From an uncultured Clostridia bacterium (GTDB lineage Bacteria; Bacillota; Clostridia; Christensenellales; Borkfalkiaceae), in assembly GCA_944368775.1 (NCBI GenBank), contig CALVXB010000013.1, positions 1 to 64,000 on the forward strand: DNA of 64,000 bases. The letters are read 5' to 3'. Shown here in pieces: positions 49,726 to 61,800 of this stretch. The notes under the pieces are model-generated. The model searched no databases and was not told the DNA's origin. It saw only the letters and a program-made list of their open reading frames with translations. Position numbers and translations under genes: made by a program. Every line of letters starts with the position of its first letter. The first letter of the stretch is position 1.

Positions 49726-51720
49726 TTAATTTTGTCGCTCCCACCGGCATTCGCCATAGGTGTCGTACAGCAATGCGGCGGCCGCGGCGGGGTCGCGCAG
49801 CGTGTCGGCGGGGACAAAGACGCGCTCGTCCGCGGCGATCGCCGTCCAGCCCTGCGGCTGCGCGAAGACCGCTTCCGAAAGCCAGCTCTGCCAGAACGCC
49901 CTTTCTCCGATATATGTGACGGATGCGGGGATCACGACGGAAAACCGATCGGCATCGCCGCAGTTTGCAAACGCCGCGCCGCCGATCCGCTCGAGGGTGT
50001 CCGGCAAAATCAGCTCCCGCAGCGCGCCGCACCCCGCAAACGCATCGCTGCCAACGGACGTGATGCCCGCCTCGAGCGCGACCCTTTCGAGCGCGCTGCA
50101 ACTCGCAAAGGTATACTCCGCGATCTGCCCGATGCCGCCGGGGACGGCGACCGAGCGGAGAGAGGCGCAATCGCGGAAGGCGCCCGCGCCCAACCCCGTC
50201 AGGGATTCGGGGAGTTTGATCTCCGCGAGGGAGATACAGCCCTCAAAGGCACTGTCGCCGACGGTGCGCAGCCCCTGCGGCAGACGGATCTGCTGCAGCC
50301 GGCTGCAATACAGGAAGGCCCTGTTCCCAACGGACGTGACGGACGAGGGGAGTTCGGCCGCGGTGAGCGGAGTGTTGGCAAAGGCAAGTTCGCCAATGGA
50401 GGTGACTCCCTGCGGAATGGTTATCTCGCGCAAGGAGGTCGCACTGAAGGCATAATCGCCGACAGATGTAACGGACGCGGGCAGCTCGATCTGTTCGAGG
50501 CTGGAGCAGGCTTCAAAAAGAAAGGCATCGATCCCCCTCAATCCTGCCGGCAGGCGCACCGAACGCAGCGAAGTACAGTAGGAAAAAGCGGAGTAACCGA
50601 TCGTCTGCACACTGTCGGGGATGACGATCTCCTCCAGCCGGTCACAGCCTTCAAAGGCACCGGGGCCGATCTCCCGCAGGGAAGCGGGCAGTTCGACCGC
50701 CTGCAGCGCAGAACAGCGGCTGAATGCCCAATCGGAGATGCTCTCCAGCGAGGCCGGCAGGCGTATGCTCTCCAGCGACATGCAATCGGCAAAGGCGCTG
50801 CTCTCGATGGTGCGCAAGCCATTCGGCAAAGAAACTTCGCGCAGCGAATAGCAGCCGTTCAACAGACTTTCGGGAACGGTTTCTGCCGCATAATCGAAAA
50901 CGGCGGATTCTATGACGCTGCGATCGAAACCGCTGTGAAGGAAAGCCTGCGCTCCCGCATCCGACAGGATGTGCAGCTCGAACTCGGGCGTGATGTACCA
51001 GTCCTCCCCCTCGGCATAGTTGCCCGACTCTGTGACGACTTTCACCTGCGCGGTGCAGGCGTTGCCGAAGCGGTCGTCCCAGCCGACCGTCTGCGTCGAA
51101 CCGTACGCGTCGCAGCGGTAGCCCGCCACGGCGGGGCCCATGTAGTAGCTGCCGTCCGCATACTCGGCGGCATACCACAGATCCGTTTCGACAAAGGGCG
51201 GCACTTCCGTCTGCAGGAGGGAAACGGATGTGAGCCGCTTGTGCTTTTGCACGCCCGCCTTGGGGCGGTCGGCGTCCAGCGTCACCGAGACCACTCTATC
51301 AAAGGAGTCCAGCTCGACGGCGATGTGCGGCACATACCAGCGGCGGGCGATGAAGTCGACAAGGTCGGCGAGCTCGAGCGAGCGGCCGTACAGATCGATG
51401 TAGCTGCCCGTGGCCGGCACCCGCCAAAAGTGCACGCCGCCGTACTCCAGCCCGCCGGCGTAGGACGCGTCCGGCTCGCCCAGCGCCTCGACGACCTGTT
51501 CGCGCGTGTCGCCGGGGCGGATGCCGCGCAGGGCGGCGGGGTGAAAGATGCCGAACATCGAAACAAAGACGGGCAGCAAAAAGGCGAGCAGCGCCGCGCC
51601 CGCGAGGCAGGCGAGCAAAATGAGCCCCCCGCGCGTGCGCTTTTTGGTGGGCGGCGCGGGCACCTTGCCCTCTGCCCATGCCGCCAGCAGCGTATCCATG
51701 TTGCCTCGTTCTCTTTGCAT
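49726..51720 (-). CDS. Membrane-anchored leucine-rich-repeat (BspA-like) protein
   Basis: 664 residues. A short cytosolic start, one membrane helix (about 32-58), then a BamE/SmpA-like stretch (LRGIRPGDTREQVVEALGEPDASY, about 64-86). From about residue 275 to 640 there are some 14 LRR_5 repeats of the form AFxxCxSLxxIxLPxSLxxIG. BspA-type repeats usually bind host or matrix proteins or glycans on the cell surface. Topology (N-in, repeats outside) is predicted from one helix. The start may be 51720 (GGGGAGG close by) or seven codons later (GAGGCAAC). Promoter at 51771-51799; single gene. Confidence 0.85.
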   Translation of the reverse strand: MQRERGNMDTLLAAWAEGKVPAPPTKKRTRGGLILLACLAGAALLAFLLPVFVSMFGIFHPAALRGIRPGDTREQVVEALGEPDASYAGGLEYGGVHFWRVPATGSYIDLYGRSLELADLVDFIARRWYVPHIAVELDSFDRVVSVTLDADRPKAGVQKHKRLTSVSLLQTEVPPFVETDLWYAAEYADGSYYMGPAVAGYRCDAYGSTQTVGWDDRFGNACTAQVKVVTESGNYAEGEDWYITPEFELHILSDAGAQAFLHSGFDRSVIESAVFDYAAETVPESLLNGCYSLREVSLPNGLRTIESSAFADCMSLESIRLPASLESISDWAFSRCSALQAVELPASLREIGPGAFEGCDRLEEIVIPDSVQTIGYSAFSYCTSLRSVRLPAGLRGIDAFLFEACSSLEQIELPASVTSVGDYAFSATSLREITIPQGVTSIGELAFANTPLTAAELPSSVTSVGNRAFLYCSRLQQIRLPQGLRTVGDSAFEGCISLAEIKLPESLTGLGAGAFRDCASLRSVAVPGGIGQIAEYTFASCSALERVALEAGITSVGSDAFAGCGALRELILPDTLERIGGAAFANCGDADRFSVVIPASVTYIGERAFWQSWLSEAVFAQPQGWTAIAADERVFVPADTLRDPAAAAALLYDTYGECRWERQN

Positions 51721-52516: not shown

Positions 52517-54838
52517 TTACAGCCCCACGATGGCGTTTTCAAACACGGTGCCGACGTCTGCCGCGGGGATAAAGTGCAGGTCGCCGCGCACGTTCGCGGG
52601 GATCTCCTCCTCGTCCTTTTCGTTGTCTTTGGGGATGATGATATTTTTGATGCCGATGCGGTGTGCGGCGAGCGCCTTCTCCTTCAAGCCCCCGATGGGC
52701 AGCACCTTGCCGCGCAGGGTGATCTCGCCCGTCATGGCGACGTCTTTGCGGACGGGCTTGCGCGTGAATGCGGAGAGGATGGCCGTCGCCATCGTGATGC
52801 CCGCGCTGGGGCCGTCTTTCGGGGTCGCGCCCTCGGGCACGTGGATGTGGATGTCCGTCTCGGCGAAGGCGTCGGGCGGGATGCCGTAGCGGTCGGCGTG
52901 GGCGCGGATGTAGCTGATCGCCGCGCGGGCGGACTCCTTCATCACGTCGCCCAGCTTGCCGGTGAGCAGAATTTCGCCCTTGCCGGGCATGGCGGAGACC
53001 TCGATGGTCAGCGTGGTGCCGCCGAAGGCCGTCCACGCGAGCCCGGTCGCCGCGCCCACCTCGTTGCCTTCGAGCTGCGCCTTGTCCTCCGCGTACTTGC
53101 GCACGCCGAGCAGCGCCTCCACCTCCTTTTCGTCGATGACCTGCTTGGGCAGGCTGCGGTCCTCGGCGTAGCGCACGGCGATCTTGCGGCAAACCGAGCC
53201 GATCTGCCGCTCGAGGCTGCGCACGCCCGCCTCCATCGTGTACCCCTCGATGAGGTAGGTCAGCGCGCCGTCCGTCACCTCGAGCAGTTCGGGCGGGAGG
53301 CCGTTTTCTTCGATCTTTTTAGGAAGGAGATAGCGGCGGGCGATCTCGCGCTTTTCGTCCAGCGTGTAGCCGTTCAGCTCGATCAGCTCCATGCGGTCGA
53401 GCAGCGGCGCGGGGATGGTCTCCACCGTGTTCGCCGTGGTGACGAACAGCACCTTGGACAAGTCGTACGGCACTTCGAGGAAGCGGTCGCGGAAGGCGGC
53501 GTTCTGCTCGGGGTCGAGCACCTCTAAAAGGGCGCTGGCGGGGTCGCCGCGCATATCGGAGGAGACTTTGTCGATCTCGTCCAGCAAAAAGACGGGGTTG
53601 ACGGTGCCCGCCTGCCGCATGGCGTAGATGATGCGGCCGGGGATCGCGCCGACGTAGGTGCGGCGGTGGCCGCGGATCTCCGCCTCGTCTTTGACGCCGC
53701 CCAAACTCATGCGCACGAACTTGCGGCCGAGCGCGCGGGCGATGGACTTGGCGATGGACGTCTTGCCCACGCCGGGCGGCCCGACGAAGCAGAGGATGGG
53801 CGCGTTCATGCTCTTGGTCAGCTGCAGCACGGCCAGGTACTCGGTGATGCGCGTCTTGACCTTTTCCAGCCCGTAGTGGTCCTCGTCCAGCACCTTCTGC
53901 GCGTCGGACAGCTTTTCGGTATCCTTGGTCTCCTCCGTCCACGGCAGCTCGATCAGCCAGTCGAGGTAGTTGCGGATGACGGTGTACTCGGGCGAGGAGG
54001 GGGGCATCTTGTCGGTGCGGGCGATCTCTTTGAGCGCCTTTTCCTCGATCTCGGCGGGCATATGCTTGGCCTTGATCTTTTCGGTGAGGGTGTCGCGCTC
54101 GGCGACGTCGTCTCCCAGCTCGCTGTGGATGGCCTTGAGCTGCTCGCGCAGGAAGTACTCCTTCTGGTTTTTATCGATGTTCTGGCGGACGGCGGCGCTG
54201 ATCTTGCGCTCGAGCTTGGCGATCTCGAGCTCGTCGTTGAGGCAGCGCTCGAACAGCTTGAGCCGCTCGACGACGCCCGTCGTTTCGAGGATCTTCTGCT
54301 TGACGTCTTCCTTGATGTGCAGATAGGTGAGCGCGGTGCCGATGTAGGCGTCGGGGTCGGTCACGTTTTCGAGCGCGGCGGCCGCCTCCTTTGAGAAGCG
54401 CGCGTCGCTCGCCTGGATGTCGCGCATCACGTCTTGCGCGGTGCGGAAGTACGCCTCCTCGAGCACGGGGTCGCCGTGCACCGCTTTGAGTTCGTACACG
54501 TTGGCGTACAGGCAGCCGTCCTCCTCGTAGATGTCCTCCGCCTTGGCGCGCACGACGCCCGCGACGCTCACGCGCAGGTTGCCCGAGGGCAGCTTTGCGA
54601 TCTGGCGGATCTTGACGACGGTGCCGACGGCGCACACGTCCTCGGGCGAGACGTCGTCTTTGGTCGGGTCCTTCTGCATGCTGACGAACAGCGTCATCTC
54701 CCGCTCGGACGCGCGCGAAATGGCGGCGAGCGAAATGAGGCGGCCGGCGTCGAAGGTGCCCGCGGTATCCGGAAAAACGACCTTGCCGCGCAGGGCGACA
54801 TAGGGATAATTGATGATTTTTTTTGCAGATTTCGGCAT
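52517..54838 (-). CDS. lon: ATP-dependent protease Lon
   Basis: 773 residues, typical LonA. An N-terminal substrate-binding domain (about 1-200), a coiled middle, the AAA+ module with GPPGVGKTS and the Walker B region VFLLDEIDK, and the protease domain with catalytic Ser678 (KDGPSAG) and Lys721 ([12 protein letters not shown]). Degrades misfolded and regulatory proteins. The start at 54838 follows AAGGAAAAAGTT; longer frames cross the promoter. The leader carries a strong dyad at the transcription start, suggesting controlled expression. Co-transcribed with engB. Confidence 0.97.
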
Positions 54839-54927: not shown

Positions 54928-55117
54928 GCCCTTTTGCGCGCCCGCCCCGCGGCGCGGGGCGGGCGCGCCCAAATTTCACCCGCCCGCCACATTCTCCCCT
55001 GCCGCCCGAACAGAACGCGCCCCGCCGCCCCCGCGATATGGCCGTTCCGCGATATGGCCGCCCCGTCCGCCGCACGCGCGCCCGCTTGCAGGATAGGCGG
55101 GCGCGCAGAGCAGACGG

Positions 55118-55169: not shown

Positions 55170-55247
55170 CTATCTGCCGCGGCGGCAGATGAGGCGCAGC
55201 GCCGCGCGCACCGCGCGCGGCGGCCGGATGCAGATGATGGCTACCAT
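55170..55247 (-). CDS. spoVM: SpoVM-like sporulation peptide (25 residues)
   Basis: A 25-codon gene that overlaps the thiN stop codon by 7 bases. A GGGAGG ribosome-binding site lies 7 bases before its ATG. The peptide begins MVAIICIRPP and continues as a basic amphipathic helix rich in Arg, Leu and Ala. In B. subtilis, spoVM encodes a 26-residue peptide and sits directly after thiN; it has Pro at position 9, as here, between a short hydrophobic start and a cationic helix. SpoVM binds the convex forespore membrane and anchors the coat protein SpoIVA. Identity rests on position, size, Pro9 and charge pattern, not on high sequence identity. If right, the organism makes endospores. Confidence 0.75.
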   Translation of the reverse strand: MVAIICIRPPRAVRAALRLICRRGR

Positions 55248-55849
55248 TTTGCTTCCTCCCGCACTTCAAACACGAAGAGCGTTCCCGCATCGCAGAAGAT
55301 GCGCGCGCTGTCCGCCTCGACGACGTTGCTGATGCCGCGGCAGCTGCCGCATGCGAGCGTCAAATCGCGCAGCGGATACTTGAGCCCTTCACTCTCCACT
55401 ATATGCGCGCTGTCGCCGACGGGTGCGAGCGAGAGGGTGCGCCCCGCCAAATTTTTCCAGCGCACCTCGCCCGCCGCGCAGTAGGCGTCGAGGTAGTTGG
55501 TGTGCATGACGGTGCGCACGCCGCGGCGAAAGCCCGCGACGAGCAGCTGCAAGTTGCCGAAGAGGTGATCCTCTCTCCCGCCGCCCGCGCCGTAGATGTC
55601 GATGCGCTCGGCGCCCCGCCCGATGAGCAGGTCGAGCGCGATCTCGCCGTCGGTGAAGTTTTTTTCGGCCGGGTAGGTGAGCGCGCCCGCCGGCACGTAG
55701 CCGAGCGAGTCGAAGTCGCCCGCCGCAATGTCGATGCGGCAGCGGCCCTGCGCCCAGCGCAGCGCGCCGTCGCAGCAGACGGTCAGCGCGCCCTCGCAGT
55801 CGATGTCGCCGCGATACGGCTCGCCGTTGAGCAGGATGACCCCCCTCAT
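55241..55849 (-). CDS. thiN: Thiamine diphosphokinase
   Basis: 202 residues. Converts thiamine to thiamine diphosphate using ATP. Family motifs are CDGALRW, AGDFDSLG, KNFTDGEIAL and GAGGGREDH in the N-terminal catalytic domain, and a C-terminal beta-sandwich (LAPVGDSAHIVESEGLKYPL). The ATG overlaps the rpe stop codon as ATGA. Gene order rpe-thiN-spoVM matches Bacillus; the rsgA and prkC genes usually upstream are absent here. Confidence 0.94.
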   Translation of the reverse strand: MRGVILLNGEPYRGDIDCEGALTVCCDGALRWAQGRCRIDIAAGDFDSLGYVPAGALTYPAEKNFTDGEIALDLLIGRGAERIDIYGAGGGREDHLFGNLQLLVAGFRRGVRTVMHTNYLDAYCAAGEVRWKNLAGRTLSLAPVGDSAHIVESEGLKYPLRDLTLACGSCRGISNVVEADSARIFCDAGTLFVFEVREEAKW

Positions 55850-56505
55850 GCCCGCGCCTCGCGCAGGATGCGGATGGTCTTTTCCTTATCGGGCGAGCGG
55901 AACACCGTGTTGCCCGCGACGAGGATATTCACCCCCGCCGCCTGCACGTCGGCGGCGTTGTCCTCGGTGATGCCGCCGTCCATCTCGATGTCCTTTTCCA
56001 GCCCCGCCGCTTGGAAGAAGCTGTACGCCTCCTCCGCCTTGGCGAGGGTGCGCTCGATCAGCTTCTGCCCGCCGCGGCCGGGGTACACGCTCATCACCAG
56101 CAGCATGTCCGCCTCTTCGAGGCAGCCCCACAGCCCCTCGAGCGGGGTGTCGGGGCTGACGGCGATGCCCGCGCGCACGCCCATCGCGCGGATGGCGCGC
56201 ATCGCGGCGGCGGGGTCTTCGCACGCCTCGGCGTGCACCGTCAAAATGTCCGCGCCCGCGCGCACGAACCCCTCCGCCTTGCCGAGCGGGTCGACGCACA
56301 TCAGGTGCACGTCCAGCGGCAGCGCCGTGCGGCGGCGCACCGCCGAAATCATGTCGGTGCCGAAGGTGATCTTGGGCACGAAGGTGCCGTCCATCACGTC
56401 GCAGTGGATGAGGTCCGCGCCGCAGCGCTCGAGCTCTGTGACCGCCTCCCCCATCGCCGCAAAATCGGCGGAGAGGATGGAGGGCGCCACGCAAATTTTC
56501 CGCAT
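55846..56505 (-). CDS. rpe: Ribulose-phosphate 3-epimerase
   Basis: 219 residues. Interconverts ribulose-5-phosphate and xylulose-5-phosphate in the pentose phosphate pathway. TIM-barrel enzyme with SILSADF (catalytic Asp near 14), HCDVMDGTFVP with metal ligands His34 and Asp36, DVHLM, and EMDGGIT with the second catalytic Asp. GGAGGT precedes ATG 56505. First gene of the rpe-thiN-spoVM operon. Confidence 0.96.
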   Translation of the reverse strand: MRKICVAPSILSADFAAMGEAVTELERCGADLIHCDVMDGTFVPKITFGTDMISAVRRRTALPLDVHLMCVDPLGKAEGFVRAGADILTVHAEACEDPAAAMRAIRAMGVRAGIAVSPDTPLEGLWGCLEEADMLLVMSVYPGRGGQKLIERTLAKAEEAYSFFQAAGLEKDIEMDGGITEDNAADVQAAGVNILVAGNTVFRSPDKEKTIRILREARA

Positions 56506-56566
56506 CGTACAATACCTCCGCGCCGCCCGCCTTTCCCGGCCGCGGCGGCAGCTCTGTTCGCCCCCT

Positions 56567-56596
56567 ATCATAGCAGAGCGGGCGGCATTTTGTCAA
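56567..56596 (-). promoter_or_regulatory. Promoter of the rpe-thiN-spoVM operon
   Basis: Reading leftward, perfect TTGACA (56591-56596) and TATGAT (56567-56572) are 18 bases apart. Confidence 0.8.
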
Positions 56597-56815: not shown

Positions 56816-59800
56816 TCAATAAACACGAACTTGCGTGCATTCTGCCGTTGTATCGCGCAGAGGACAGTCGCGGCTAGGTAACCACTCTCTTTCAGCCGCA
56901 TCTTCCCATTCCTGCAGCCGTGCAGATGTCCACGTGCCGGTAGTACCATCCGAGTAAGTATACTCGACATTCCGCGTTGTATCGTCGTATCCTTTTTCGA
57001 TGATATCAAGCAGCTGGATATCTTCTCCGAGGCCAGCGTCATTGGTACCGATTGCGCCGTAGAGGTAATGACTGCCGCTCCGATGTGGCACGCCCTTAAA
57101 GGTGCCGCCGCTGATCACGACGACGCCGCCGTCACTCGCCCACTGATTGGTATTGAAGCGGAGGCCTGCAGCTTTATAATATCGATTACTCCAATCATTT
57201 AAGTCCTCTTCATTCGTGCCTTCTCCGGTAAAGGTGCCGCCGCTGATCGTGACATTGCCCGCGACATGCGCGCCCGCGTTGCCGGCATAATCGAAGCCGC
57301 TGTTGTCGCCGATAAATTGTCCGCCGGAGATGGTCACCTTCGACCACGACGTGCCGTACCAGATGCCGTTTCTGCCGCCGCCGTCGCCTGTAATGTAGAC
57401 GTTTTGTTCGGTATTGTTGTACGTTCCGCCGCTGAAGGTGCCGCCGTGGATGGTGACGTTCGCCGCTCTGTAGCCGCTCGGGATGTTCGTTTCGACGGCG
57501 ATGCCCGTAGAGGCCGCCGCGACGATCAGGTCAGCGTTATTCTGTTCCTCGGTCTTTTTTTCGTCGCCGAATACGAGCGTCGCATTGCGCCAGACGCTGA
57601 AGCCGCTCGCCCCCGCGCCGGTGAAGACGCCCGCCGTGATGGTGGCGCTGCCGTCCATGACGAACGCGCCGTTGCCTTCCGACGCGAACCTGCCGCCGCT
57701 GACGTTGGCGGTGCCGCCGAGCACCTTGAAGGCGTACGATGCGCCCGGACCCGCGACGAAGCCGCCGCCGGCCGCACTATAATTGTCGTTGCCCGAGAAG
57801 TTGCCCGCGGTGATGGTCGCCGAGCCGTTGCGCACGAGGATGCCGTCGCCCTGCGCCGACGAATAGCTGCCGCCGTTGACGTACAGCGAGCCGCCCGCGA
57901 CCTCGATGGCGGGGCCGCCGTTCTGGCTGACGCGGTAGTTCCAGTTGCTGCCACTTGTGCCGCTCAGGTCGGTGCGGTAGCCGCTGTGCAAGGCGTTGCC
58001 CTGCGTACTGACGGCGGGGCCGGCATCTGTGCCGTCGTTCAAACCCAAATTGACGGTGCCGTCGGAGACGTACACGCCGCCGCCCGTGACGGCGGTGATT
58101 TCGCCGCCCGCGATGGTCACATTGGCAGCGTTGCCCGCGCCGCCCGCCTGCACGCGCACGGCGTAGCTGGTCGTCGTCAGTTGGTCGAAGGTGCTGCTCG
58201 TCTGCGGGCCGTTTTGCAGGCCTGTGAAGGTGACGTTCAGCGCGCCGTCTGCGCGCAGCGAGCCGCCGTCGATGGCGATGCCGTCGACGCGCGTCGTTGC
58301 GGCGACGCCCTGCGTCTGCGACCACGAATAGGCGGGCTCGATGCCGTTGCCGCTGGGTGTGACCGTCGCGATGACGGTGAGGGTCGCTTCCTCGTTGACG
58401 GCGAGGCTGCCGCCGTAGACGTAGACGCCCGTGCCGTGCGTCGTCGTGACAGACGTCGTGCCGCTTTGGACGACGACCTGCTCGCCCGCGCGCGAACTGC
58501 CGCCCGCCGCGGTGATGCCGAGGCTGTCCGACGCGATCGTATTGTTGCCCGTGAAGGTGATATTGCCGCCCTGCGAGCTGACCGCCGTCGAGGTGAGGAA
58601 TTGACTATAAGTATAGTCTACCCAATCAGCGTAGGTGCTGTTTGCAACGGTGACGTTGCAGTTGTGCATCGTGACGGAGGGCGCGCTTGCAGAGGCTTCC
58701 GCAGACGCCGTGGCGAGGACGCCCGCGCCGTAAGTGCCATGCAGCGTGATGTCTGCGCGGTACAAGTTGACGGTGCCGCCCACCGAATAGACGCCGAACA
58801 CCCTGTCGAGCACGTTATTCGAAGCGCCCGCCGTCATGGTGATGCGCGAGGAGCCGGACGCGGGGCCGGTGAACGTTCCGCCCGTCATGCGGACGATGGC
58901 GCTGTTGCCGGACGCCGCCGAAGCGGACTTGGTAAACGTTCCGCCGGAGGCATACAGGATGCCGCCCTCGACCTGCACGGTATCTCCCCTTTCAGACGCA
59001 AAGGTGCCGCCCGTGACGACGAGGTTTGCTGCGCCGGCAGAAGACTCTTCGCAATGGATGCACACGCCGTCTTCAATGGCGGTGAAGGCAGACGTGCCGG
59101 ACACGACGAGGTTGCCGCCCTCGGCATAGATGCCGTACGAGTTTGCGGTGCCGAAGTGGTTTTCGTAATTGCCGCCGCGCGCGAACGCCTCGCCGCTTTC
59201 CATGCGGATGGCAGCGTACGGCCAGACGACCTGCGACGTCACCGCGCCGCCCGACGTATCCGTGGCCGAGATCTGCGCCGTTGCGCCATCCATCACGTCG
59301 TTATAGCCGTAGACGACCGCGTAGCGGGTGCCGGTTGCGCTGTAATCATAGTTGTCGTCGATGGGGTAGCTGTAATAGAAGTCGCACGAGGCGGCGTCGC
59401 ACAGCGGCTGCGGGTCGGCGACGTCGCTGACGCCGTACACGAGGAAGGTGTCGCCCTTGATATACGTGTTATAGCCCTGCGCCGTGCCTTGAAGCGACCC
59501 GTCGGCAAAATACATATTGCCGTTGACGCCGCCCGTCGTGTTCGGCGTGATGACGGGCATATTGGCGGTCGCCGTCGTATAGACGGTCTGGCGCAGGTTG
59601 TCCGACGAATAGTCGCCGTACCCGTTGCGCACATGCAGGGTGACTTCTTGCGTCGCGCTCGTTTCCGCAAACTTGCCGCCGCCCTTCGTTATGTAATTTG
59701 AACCGCTGAGCTCCACGCGCTCCCCCTCTCTCGGGCCGCAGTCGTAGGTGCCGGCGGCGATGGTCAGGGTGCCGCCCGCCACCTGCAGCGAGCTGCCGAC

Positions 59801-60226
59801 GGGGTTATAGAAGGAGCCCTCGGTTGCGGTGTTGCTCTCCGAGTCGAACACGATGACGACGGAGACGTTTTCTTGCACGTTGAGCAGCGGGTTGCGGCTG
59901 TTGCGGATGACGTCGTTGCCGTTGATGTCGATGACGAGGTTTGCCTCGACGTCGGTGACGCCGGTGGTGACCTCGAAGGGCTGCTCGGCGTCTTCGGCGA
60001 TCTCGATGTACGAATAGCCGTTTTCGATGGCGGCGGTCAGCTCTTCGGGCGTGCGGACGACATACTTTTCCGCGCCGATGAAGTCGATGATGTCGCCGTA
60101 GAGGCTGTCTTCTGAAATGGAAGGGTTGCTGCCGTACCGCCCGTAGGTGATCGCCGCCCCGAACAGGGAGAGGGCGAGCGCGCCGACGAGGGCGAACAGC
60201 CAAATTTTATAAATTTTTGCCTTCAT
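56816..60226 (-). CDS. Large exported beta-helix-like repeat protein
   Basis: 1136 residues. The leader (KIYKIWLFALVGALALSLFGAAITYGRYG) resembles SipW-type signals: a long hydrophobic helix then a GAxxTYxxY cleavage region. The body is built from dozens of short repeats of the kind VTISGGTFxGxG, GGSLYVNGGSYSS, ATITAGNFSG, the pattern of right-handed parallel beta-helix surface proteins. About 45 residues at the C-terminus are charged with no LPXTG motif, so it is not sortase-anchored. Very few lysines and many Gly, Thr, Ser and Asn. Start at 60226 by GGAGG upstream; a GTG seven codons earlier overlaps the previous stop. Probably a matrix or adhesion protein, by context with sipW. Confidence 0.8.
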   Translation of the reverse strand: MKAKIYKIWLFALVGALALSLFGAAITYGRYGSNPSISEDSLYGDIIDFIGAEKYVVRTPEELTAAIENGYSYIEIAEDAEQPFEVTTGVTDVEANLVIDINGNDVIRNSRNPLLNVQENVSVVIVFDSESNTATEGSFYNPVGSSLQVAGGTLTIAAGTYDCGPREGERVELSGSNYITKGGGKFAETSATQEVTLHVRNGYGDYSSDNLRQTVYTTATANMPVITPNTTGGVNGNMYFADGSLQGTAQGYNTYIKGDTFLVYGVSDVADPQPLCDAASCDFYYSYPIDDNYDYSATGTRYAVVYGYNDVMDGATAQISATDTSGGAVTSQVVWPYAAIRMESGEAFARGGNYENHFGTANSYGIYAEGGNLVVSGTSAFTAIEDGVCIHCEESSAGAANLVVTGGTFASERGDTVQVEGGILYASGGTFTKSASAASGNSAIVRMTGGTFTGPASGSSRITMTAGASNNVLDRVFGVYSVGGTVNLYRADITLHGTYGAGVLATASAEASASAPSVTMHNCNVTVANSTYADWVDYTYSQFLTSTAVSSQGGNITFTGNNTIASDSLGITAAGGSSRAGEQVVVQSGTTSVTTTHGTGVYVYGGSLAVNEEATLTVIATVTPSGNGIEPAYSWSQTQGVAATTRVDGIAIDGGSLRADGALNVTFTGLQNGPQTSSTFDQLTTTSYAVRVQAGGAGNAANVTIAGGEITAVTGGGVYVSDGTVNLGLNDGTDAGPAVSTQGNALHSGYRTDLSGTSGSNWNYRVSQNGGPAIEVAGGSLYVNGGSYSSAQGDGILVRNGSATITAGNFSGNDNYSAAGGGFVAGPGASYAFKVLGGTANVSGGRFASEGNGAFVMDGSATITAGVFTGAGASGFSVWRNATLVFGDEKKTEEQNNADLIVAAASTGIAVETNIPSGYRAANVTIHGGTFSGGTYNNTEQNVYITGDGGGRNGIWYGTSWSKVTISGGQFIGDNSGFDYAGNAGAHVAGNVTISGGTFTGEGTNEEDLNDWSNRYYKAAGLRFNTNQWASDGGVVVISGGTFKGVPHRSGSHYLYGAIGTNDAGLGEDIQLLDIIEKGYDDTTRNVEYTYSDGTTGTWTSARLQEWEDAAEREWLPSRDCPLRDTTAECTQVRVY

Positions 60227-60243
60227 ACTCCCTATTTCCTCCC

Positions 60244-61800
60244 TCACGGCTGCGCGGGCGACTCGGACGCCTGCACGAAGCTGACGCCGATCTGCAGCGC
60301 GTAGCTCTTTTCCGTCGCCGCGCCGATCGTGGACTTATTGACGATATTCGCAAATTCAGTTGCGGTATATTGCGTGATATCGACGGATGTGGGCGCGGTG
60401 CCGCTGCAGGTGGCGATGTTGCCTTCTACCGTCATCTCGTGCGGGTAAGAACCATCCTCCGATGAGAGGGAAGCGATGTGCATGAACGCCATCAGGCTCC
60501 CTTTTTCATCCGCTTCGACGAGCCGCCGCACGCGCATGCGGGTCACTTCGCCCGTTGTACTGCCCGCGACGGGCGCGTCGTTGACGTCGATGTGCGCCGC
60601 GTTGACCGAAGCGCCGTTATACTGCGGGCTGCCCGCAGCACCGTCTGCGTTCGTAAAATTATCGAAAATGCCCTGAATATAGTTATCCCACTCTTCCGTG
60701 GTGCCGCTCGTCGACCCGTGGTATTGCAGGTCGGACGAAGCGATGGCGTTCGTCCACGTCAAAGCGAACACGATGGTATCCGTGCCGGCTGTAAGATTTC
60801 CGTTTTCTTCCGTCGCTGCGGGCACGGAGAAGCCGGTCAGGTCGATCTCGACGGTGTAAAAGAGGGCGTTTTCGCGCTCGCAGTCGAAGTACAGCGCGGG
60901 CGCGGAGTCGCCGCTCACCTGGCGGGTGAAGCCGACGGAAAACGTTTCCGTACCCGTGTGCGCGGTGATGGTGAGGATGCCGCCCGGGAGCTTTTCCTGC
61001 TCCTCCTCGGCGGGCTGGCTCGGGTCGGTACCCTCGCCCGTGCCGCCCTCGCCCGTGCCGGGGTCGGTGCCCGTGCCGGGGTCGGTCGGTTCGGTCGTGC
61101 CCTCGCCGGGGTCGGGAGTCGTCTCTTCGGCGATGGCCGTTTCGTTCCACGTCGCAGTCACCGTGCCGCCGCTCGTTGTCAATCCGCCGCTTACGGTCAG
61201 CTCGACCTCGCCGCTGCCCGTCTGCCCGAAGGCGTCGGAGGTCGCGGTGTCATACGTTTCGTTGGTCGTCCATGTGCGGTAACCTTCGTTATAAGAATAA
61301 TTGTGCGTTTCTTGCTCGGAGCCCGTGGGGGCGTAGCCCGTTTCGCCCGCGCCTCGGGTATAGAGCAGGTCTGCAAGCACGAACTGCGTGGTCAGCGGGT
61401 CGCCCATGGCGACGGTGCTGCCCTCCACCGTGTCGAATACTTGCAGCGCGATGTTATCCCAAAACTCGGCGGGCGCGGTCAGCCGCAGCTTGGGGTTGAC
61501 GGCGACGTCGCTGTTGTTGACGGCGGTCAGGCGCACGGTGCGCGCGTTGCCGTTGCCCTGCTCTGCCCAGCGGCCGCCGTACAGCTGCCAATAGTTCATA
61601 TTGCCGAAGGAGGTGCTGTTGATGCCGTCGACGGTGTACGTCACATCGTAGCGGGCGAGGGGCCGGTCCGCCACGACGCCGCCCGTGCCGTAGTAACGCG
61701 CAAAGGTGACGCCCGCCAGCAGCAGCGCGAGCGCGAGCAGCAGCGCGACGTATCTCCCCACGGGATATTTTCTCTTTTCGGGAACATTGTTTGCGTTCAT
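60244..61800 (-). CDS. TasA/camelysin-like exported protein
   Basis: 518 residues. Short basic start, hydrophobic helix (about 17-34, YVALLLALALLLAGVTFARYY) of the SipW-dependent type, then a beta-rich body with NARTVRLTAVNNSDVAVNPKLRLTAP, the conserved kind of start of TasA/camelysin domains. A Pro/Thr/Gly/Glu-rich linker (about 230-265, PTDPGTGTDPG) splits the protein into two parts. The C-terminus (YALQIGVSFVQASE) resembles that of the partial gene at the right edge. GAGGAACGC precedes the ATG. Its stop lies just before the beta-helix start, so the genes are co-transcribed. Likely a biofilm or surface-fibre component, processed by the nearby SipW. Confidence 0.78.
   Translation of the reverse strand: MNANNVPEKRKYPVGRYVALLLALALLLAGVTFARYYGTGGVVADRPLARYDVTYTVDGINSTSFGNMNYWQLYGGRWAEQGNGNARTVRLTAVNNSDVAVNPKLRLTAPAEFWDNIALQVFDTVEGSTVAMGDPLTTQFVLADLLYTRGAGETGYAPTGSEQETHNYSYNEGYRTWTTNETYDTATSDAFGQTGSGEVELTVSGGLTTSGGTVTATWNETAIAEETTPDPGEGTTEPTDPGTGTDPGTGEGGTGEGTDPSQPAEEEQEKLPGGILTITAHTGTETFSVGFTRQVSGDSAPALYFDCERENALFYTVEIDLTGFSVPAATEENGNLTAGTDTIVFALTWTNAIASSDLQYHGSTSGTTEEWDNYIQGIFDNFTNADGAAGSPQYNGASVNAAHIDVNDAPVAGSTTGEVTRMRVRRLVEADEKGSLMAFMHIASLSSEDGSYPHEMTVEGNIATCSGTAPTSVDITQYTATEFANIVNKSTIGAATEKSYALQIGVSFVQASESPAQP

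Follow-up and report, generated by a model that had tools for sequence, protein, structure and literature searches.

The 25-codon open reading frame (ORF) at the end of thiN in the window, by which we mean the whole 64,000-nucleotide stretch of DNA analysed here, is spoVM, and the SpoIVA encoded elsewhere in the same genome is a short form that is missing the ATPase motifs of its family. Taking the two together, we consider it probable that the SpoIVA partner of this SpoVM works without ATP hydrolysis and that the basement coat is built by SpoVM, by lateral and C-terminal SpoIVA contacts, and by SipL. The SpoVM family is already known, and the window gene is a further member of it, probably an unannotated one. 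A natural SpoIVA without ATPase motifs appears to be new, as no report of one was found in the literature (open-licence papers only). The window belongs to the genus Candidatus Borkfalkia, of the family Borkfalkiaceae and the order Christensenellales (PMC11536998).

Table 1. Coordinates of spoVM and its neighbours in the window, and of the spoIVA gene of the same genome (G000).
Feature	Position	Strand	Basis
spoVM	55170..55247	-	ORF, ATG start at 55247, 25 codons and TAG stop; conserved in the genus; profile of relatives matches B. subtilis SpoVM
Shine-Dalgarno GGGAGGA, 5' of spoVM ATG	55254..55260	-	sequence reading
thiN, thiamine diphosphokinase	55241..55849	-	TIGR01378, E=1.2e-32, 113 bits against a cut-off of 76.4
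rpe, ribulose-phosphate 3-epimerase, upstream of thiN	55846..56571	-	TIGR01163, E=1.3e-70
lon, endopeptidase La, next downstream of spoVM	52517..54838	-	TIGR00763, E=1.4e-273
SpoIVA, 405 aa (loci L038, L136)	contig C11:41829-43043, outside the window	-	TIGR02836, 219 bits

The peptide encoded by the ORF is MVAIICIRPPRAVRAALRLICRRGR. The initial annotation had described a real ORF with the correct start and length, and its ideal ribosome-binding site is borne out by the Shine-Dalgarno sequence, which is separated from the ATG by a spacer of 6 nt (AGCAAA). The start of spoVM shares 7 bp with the end of thiN, again as had been read, and rpe and thiN overlap by 4 bp. The proposal that the ORF occupies the place of spoVM also stands, and 33 relatives have the same arrangement of the peptide next to rpe-thiN. 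A scan of 35 species for a sigma-E-type promoter upstream of spoVM gave no more matches than shuffled sequence.

The thiN loci of same-genus genomes were compared, counting a genome only if its contig runs past thiN; G033, whose contig ends at thiN, was left out. In 35/35 of these genomes the thiN end is accompanied by a short ORF whose core reads [IV][IVY]C.[KR]PP, so that the conservation in close relatives which the initial annotation had named as a test is present, and the ORF is not a chance one. Its distance from the thiN stop is -7 to +8 nt in 33 of the 35; the other two have it detached from thiN, by 704 nt in G021 and by 136 nt in G030, yet intact. The Shine-Dalgarno sequence GGGAGGA, or a near variant, precedes the ORF in nearly all short-SpoIVA relatives, and other genera of the family carry the ORF in the same place. 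Firm dN/dS values are out of reach for a gene of this length.

When scanned as a single peptide against NCBIfam and Pfam, the window peptide gave no match to a curated SpoVM model. A profile was built from 24 peptides of the genus, family and order and searched against 177,635 PDB sequences, with E-values accepted up to 10. Its sole match was B. subtilis SpoVM (2mvh), at a weak E=0.43 that is expected for just 16 aligned residues. The register placed Val7 on Ile6, Pro10 on Pro9 and Arg18 on Arg17. The NCBIfam SpoVM model NF033436 (cut-off 31 bits) was matched by 3 of the 24 family peptides (best E=0.0015), with one related peptide below the cut-off at 17.6 bits; the family peptide MIVCIRLPRIVGLIVRLFYKR forms a bridge to the B. 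subtilis form. Pro10 of the window peptide is an invariant column across the 24 aligned peptides. The profile match to 2mvh places it on Pro9 of B. subtilis SpoVM, which means that the proline had earlier been numbered one too low, the shift being due to one additional N-terminal residue in the clade of the window peptide. In SpoVM, Pro9 is the sole fully conserved residue and gives the kink for curvature sensing (PMC5607322, PMC12004969). The window peptide has a net charge of +7 and a hydrophobic moment of 0.78 that was equalled in 6.7% of shuffles, a marginal value; the corresponding fraction is 0.7-1.0% in two relatives and 9.9% for B. subtilis SpoVM itself.

Like the SpoVM of B. subtilis (2mvh) and C. 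difficile, these peptides are of about 26 residues, follow thiN, have Ile or Val at the SpoIVA-contact position 6 and carry the invariant proline followed by a putative basic amphipathic helix. They differ in the added N-terminal residue of the short-SpoIVA clade, in a Pro-Pro pair that replaces Leu-Pro, in an Arg-rich helix and, in the window species, in Ala at the equivalents of K2 and I15, both of which are important in B. subtilis SpoVM (PMC5607322). A link between loss of the K2 equivalent and loss of Walker A in SpoIVA was considered and rejected, since the Lys is lost in G000, G018 and G001 and kept in four other species without Walker A.

That the ORF might instead have arisen by chance, or encode a leader peptide for a thiN/lon operon, is suggested by the failure of the single window peptide to match a model and by how common ORFs are at high GC. 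We regard this as very improbable, since the amino-acid motif is kept in every species counted and also elsewhere in the family, in other genera, the Shine-Dalgarno sequence is conserved, the profile matches nothing in the PDB but SpoVM, and the intact ORFs standing apart from thiN in G021 and G030 argue against a cis-acting leader.

The identification as spoVM had been taken as direct evidence that the organism sporulates. The core sporulation genes are indeed present, including SpoIVA, Spo0A (234 bits against a cut-off of 200) and, above their NCBIfam cut-offs, SpoIIAB, SigE and SigG. SigF is represented by a protein with its best match in the SigF/SigG subfamily that falls below the cut-off, and SigK lies above one cut-off and just below another. 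The SpoIIGA gene adjoins sigE-sigG, and SipL, SpoIIE and two SpoVAC/EB proteins were also found; SpoVAC/EB, SpoIIE, Spo0A and SipL are kept throughout the genus. By eye the C-terminus of SipL is LysM-like, and Pfam makes no call there. Borkfalkiaceae have been called potentially sporulating in a survey of metagenome-assembled genomes (MAGs) (PMC11536998), and it is likely from the gene content that the window organism sporulates. "Direct evidence" is nevertheless too strong, since no alpha/beta-type SASP (PF00269) was found in the 25 Borkfalkia searched, and since the phenotype itself lies beyond sequence. The same search found matches in the B. subtilis control and in four of the 16 genomes of the order that lie outside Borkfalkia, the remaining 12 giving none. 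Since SASP are absent from most other sampled families of the order and also from Borkfalkia with full-length SpoIVA, their absence does not track the change in SpoIVA. In Borkfalkia spores lacking alpha/beta SASP, DNA protection would need another protein.

According to a published account, Walker A, sensor-T and Walker B are retained across the SpoIVA family (PMC7952092). The SpoIVA of the window species has 405 residues, compared with about 492 in the usual form, and its TIGR02836 score lies far below the equivalog cut-off of 459.9 bits, with the alignment starting at model position 148. A contiguous deletion of about 65 residues has removed the sensor Thr (TTEP) together with Walker B (DCVGF). 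Walker A is decayed as well, with GPPACGRHT in place of GPVRTGKST (GKST to GRHT) and its lysine lost. The middle domain (PF20438, E=3e-36) and the C-terminal domain (PF20439, E=1.4e-17) are intact, and the protein ends in NEGRGGVLCILL. Since it lacks all three ATPase motifs, it is a SpoIVA homologue and not a SpoIVA ATPase. A genome search found no second SpoIVA ATPase domain, and judging from the motifs the short SpoIVA is most likely unable to hydrolyse ATP.

Alignment showed the sensor Thr and Walker B to be missing in 28/28 short-form Borkfalkia species, of which 20 still have Walker A GK[ST]. An assembly artefact is ruled out as these 28 genomes agree and the named ones, which are MAGs, come from several independent studies. 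Eight other Borkfalkia (G002, G006, G008, G011, G016, G026, G027 and G034) and 13/13 other genera aligned have a SpoIVA of about 490 residues, and all motifs are kept in these, except in G027. The full-length SpoIVA of G027 (L067) has Glu for the Walker B Asp (ECVGF), TLSP at the sensor and a raised dN/dS in the ATPase part, which makes it another case of decay at this active site, independent of that in the short forms. In a sample of 391 genomes across the class, TIGR02836 matched in 281, and 275 of these scored above 459.9 bits. Among the six below, the window genome has the only complete short SpoIVA, the others being contig-edge pieces (G385, G252, G206), a fragment of 93 residues (G370) and a weak match (G319); this being a sample, other cases may exist in the class.

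Trees were built from thiN and the middle and C-terminal domains of SpoIVA only, which excluded the columns of the trait itself. In a free quick tree the full-length Borkfalkia fell inside a poorly resolved backbone. The tree that holds all short forms together was better by 48.6 log-likelihood units (AU 0.996), showing that short SpoIVA has a single origin and that one ancestral deletion accounts for all of them. Walker A was lost later, in about four separate lines.

Selection was estimated by the Nei-Gojobori method, with dS saturated for some pairs. Between short forms, dN/dS was 0.01-0.17 in the C-terminal domain, 0.03-0.26 in the middle domain and 0.08-0.57 in the ATPase remnant, where the top values (0.31-0.57) belong to the clade without Walker A; the same N-terminal stretch gave 0.05-0.10 in intact full-length pairs. 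The reading frame is intact in all 28 short-form species. The strong purifying selection on the SpoVM-binding C-terminus indicates that short spoIVA is not a dead gene. Furthermore, Gly399 does not vary among the 28 short forms and is the equivalent of Gly486 of B. subtilis SpoIVA, the residue that contacts SpoVM Ile6 and whose mutation suppresses SpoVM I6A (PMC5607322). This suggests that the contact between SpoVM and SpoIVA is retained though the ATPase motifs are gone.

A search by sequence yielded no solved structure of SpoIVA. An AlphaFold run with the 28 relatives was used (a single-sequence run gave pLDDT 39). It predicted a compact N-terminal fold that is confident to about residue 155 (mostly pLDDT over 85-90) and resembles G domains, with low confidence over the last ~140 residues.

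The short SpoIVA could be interpreted in two other ways. One is that SpoVM is genuine and the short SpoIVA a decaying remnant in a lineage that is losing sporulation, with these genes on their way out. The lack of alpha/beta SASP in the genus and the relaxed constraint in the ATPase remnant would fit such a loss, as would the description of the related Christensenella as non-spore-forming (quoted in PMC11536998). So would the absence of a SpoIVA match from G012 and G028, two genomes of the genus (88-91% complete) that do have spoVM, an absence that may reflect either loss or incompleteness. Against decay stand the open reading frame of every short form, the strong constraint on the C-terminal domain, the presence of SpoVM in all the genomes counted and of the four sporulation proteins named above throughout the genus, and the fact that the lack of SASP does not follow the change in SpoIVA; we think decay unlikely. 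The other interpretation is that short SpoIVA still binds nucleotide, and perhaps slowly hydrolyses it, through a rebuilt minimal pocket. Both the Walker A that persists in most short forms and the confident, G-domain-like fold of the first 155 residues speak for such a pocket. No short form retains the segment with the sensor Thr and the Walker B Asp, however, and Walker A itself was lost some four times independently, including in the window species, so that this too appears improbable, to about the same degree. We lean, by a modest margin over even, to the view that these gut Clostridia, as a clade, form spores by means of a SpoIVA which makes no use of nucleotide.

We propose that assembly with the short SpoIVA would proceed as follows. 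By analogy with B. subtilis and C. difficile, SpoVM would be made in the mother cell and would lie on the convex forespore membrane through a basic amphipathic helix with a kink at Pro10, and the membrane-bound peptide would recruit SpoIVA. With the segment for sensor Thr and Walker B lost in the ancestral deletion, the basement layer may be assembled by SpoVM tethering, by lateral and C-terminal contacts between SpoIVA molecules and by SipL, and the former ATPase domain would persist solely as a folded structural module. Two observations lead us to infer that short SpoIVA is still functional: its middle and C-terminal domains are under purifying selection, and the sporulation gene set is otherwise nearly complete. 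In C. difficile, mutants in the ATPase motifs make heat-resistant spores at levels reduced just 2-3 fold (100-fold for K35E), and lateral contacts and SpoVM have been proposed as the back-up; SipL of this species has a preference for ATP-bound SpoIVA (PMC7549369). These data make ATPase-free assembly in Borkfalkia plausible. The two systems would be alike in a SpoIVA that mostly works without intact motifs, with SipL present and CmpA absent, and they differ in that the C. difficile motifs were mutated in the laboratory, whereas in Borkfalkia the loss is natural and clade-wide.

Among bacterial cytoskeletal proteins, SpoIVA is the textbook example of irreversible polymerisation at the cost of ATP. 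If our proposal is correct, ATP-driven polymerisation of SpoIVA is not universally required for the basement layer of the spore, and a P-loop domain can become a purely structural module. The loss in Borkfalkia fits the finding in C. difficile that the motifs are largely dispensable (PMC7549369). The genus also offers a ready-made experiment on the role of the ATPase, with a clade lacking the motifs, sister species bearing the ATPase, and SpoVM in both. The window spoVM is, in addition, the kind of gene that annotation misses.

Several other features of the window were noted. The interval between spoVM and lon contains a strong GC-rich inverted repeat at 54936-54968 and, at about 55036-55060, a gatatggcc motif that is repeated. 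Upstream of rpe, at the possible place of rsgA/prkC, lie two long overlapping ORFs of 1143 and 518 aa (56816-60247 and 60244-61800, both on the minus strand) without a convincing Pfam family. At 49726-51720, also on the minus strand, a 664-aa BspA-type leucine-rich repeat protein (PF13306, E=6e-120) is encoded, which is likely to be a surface protein.
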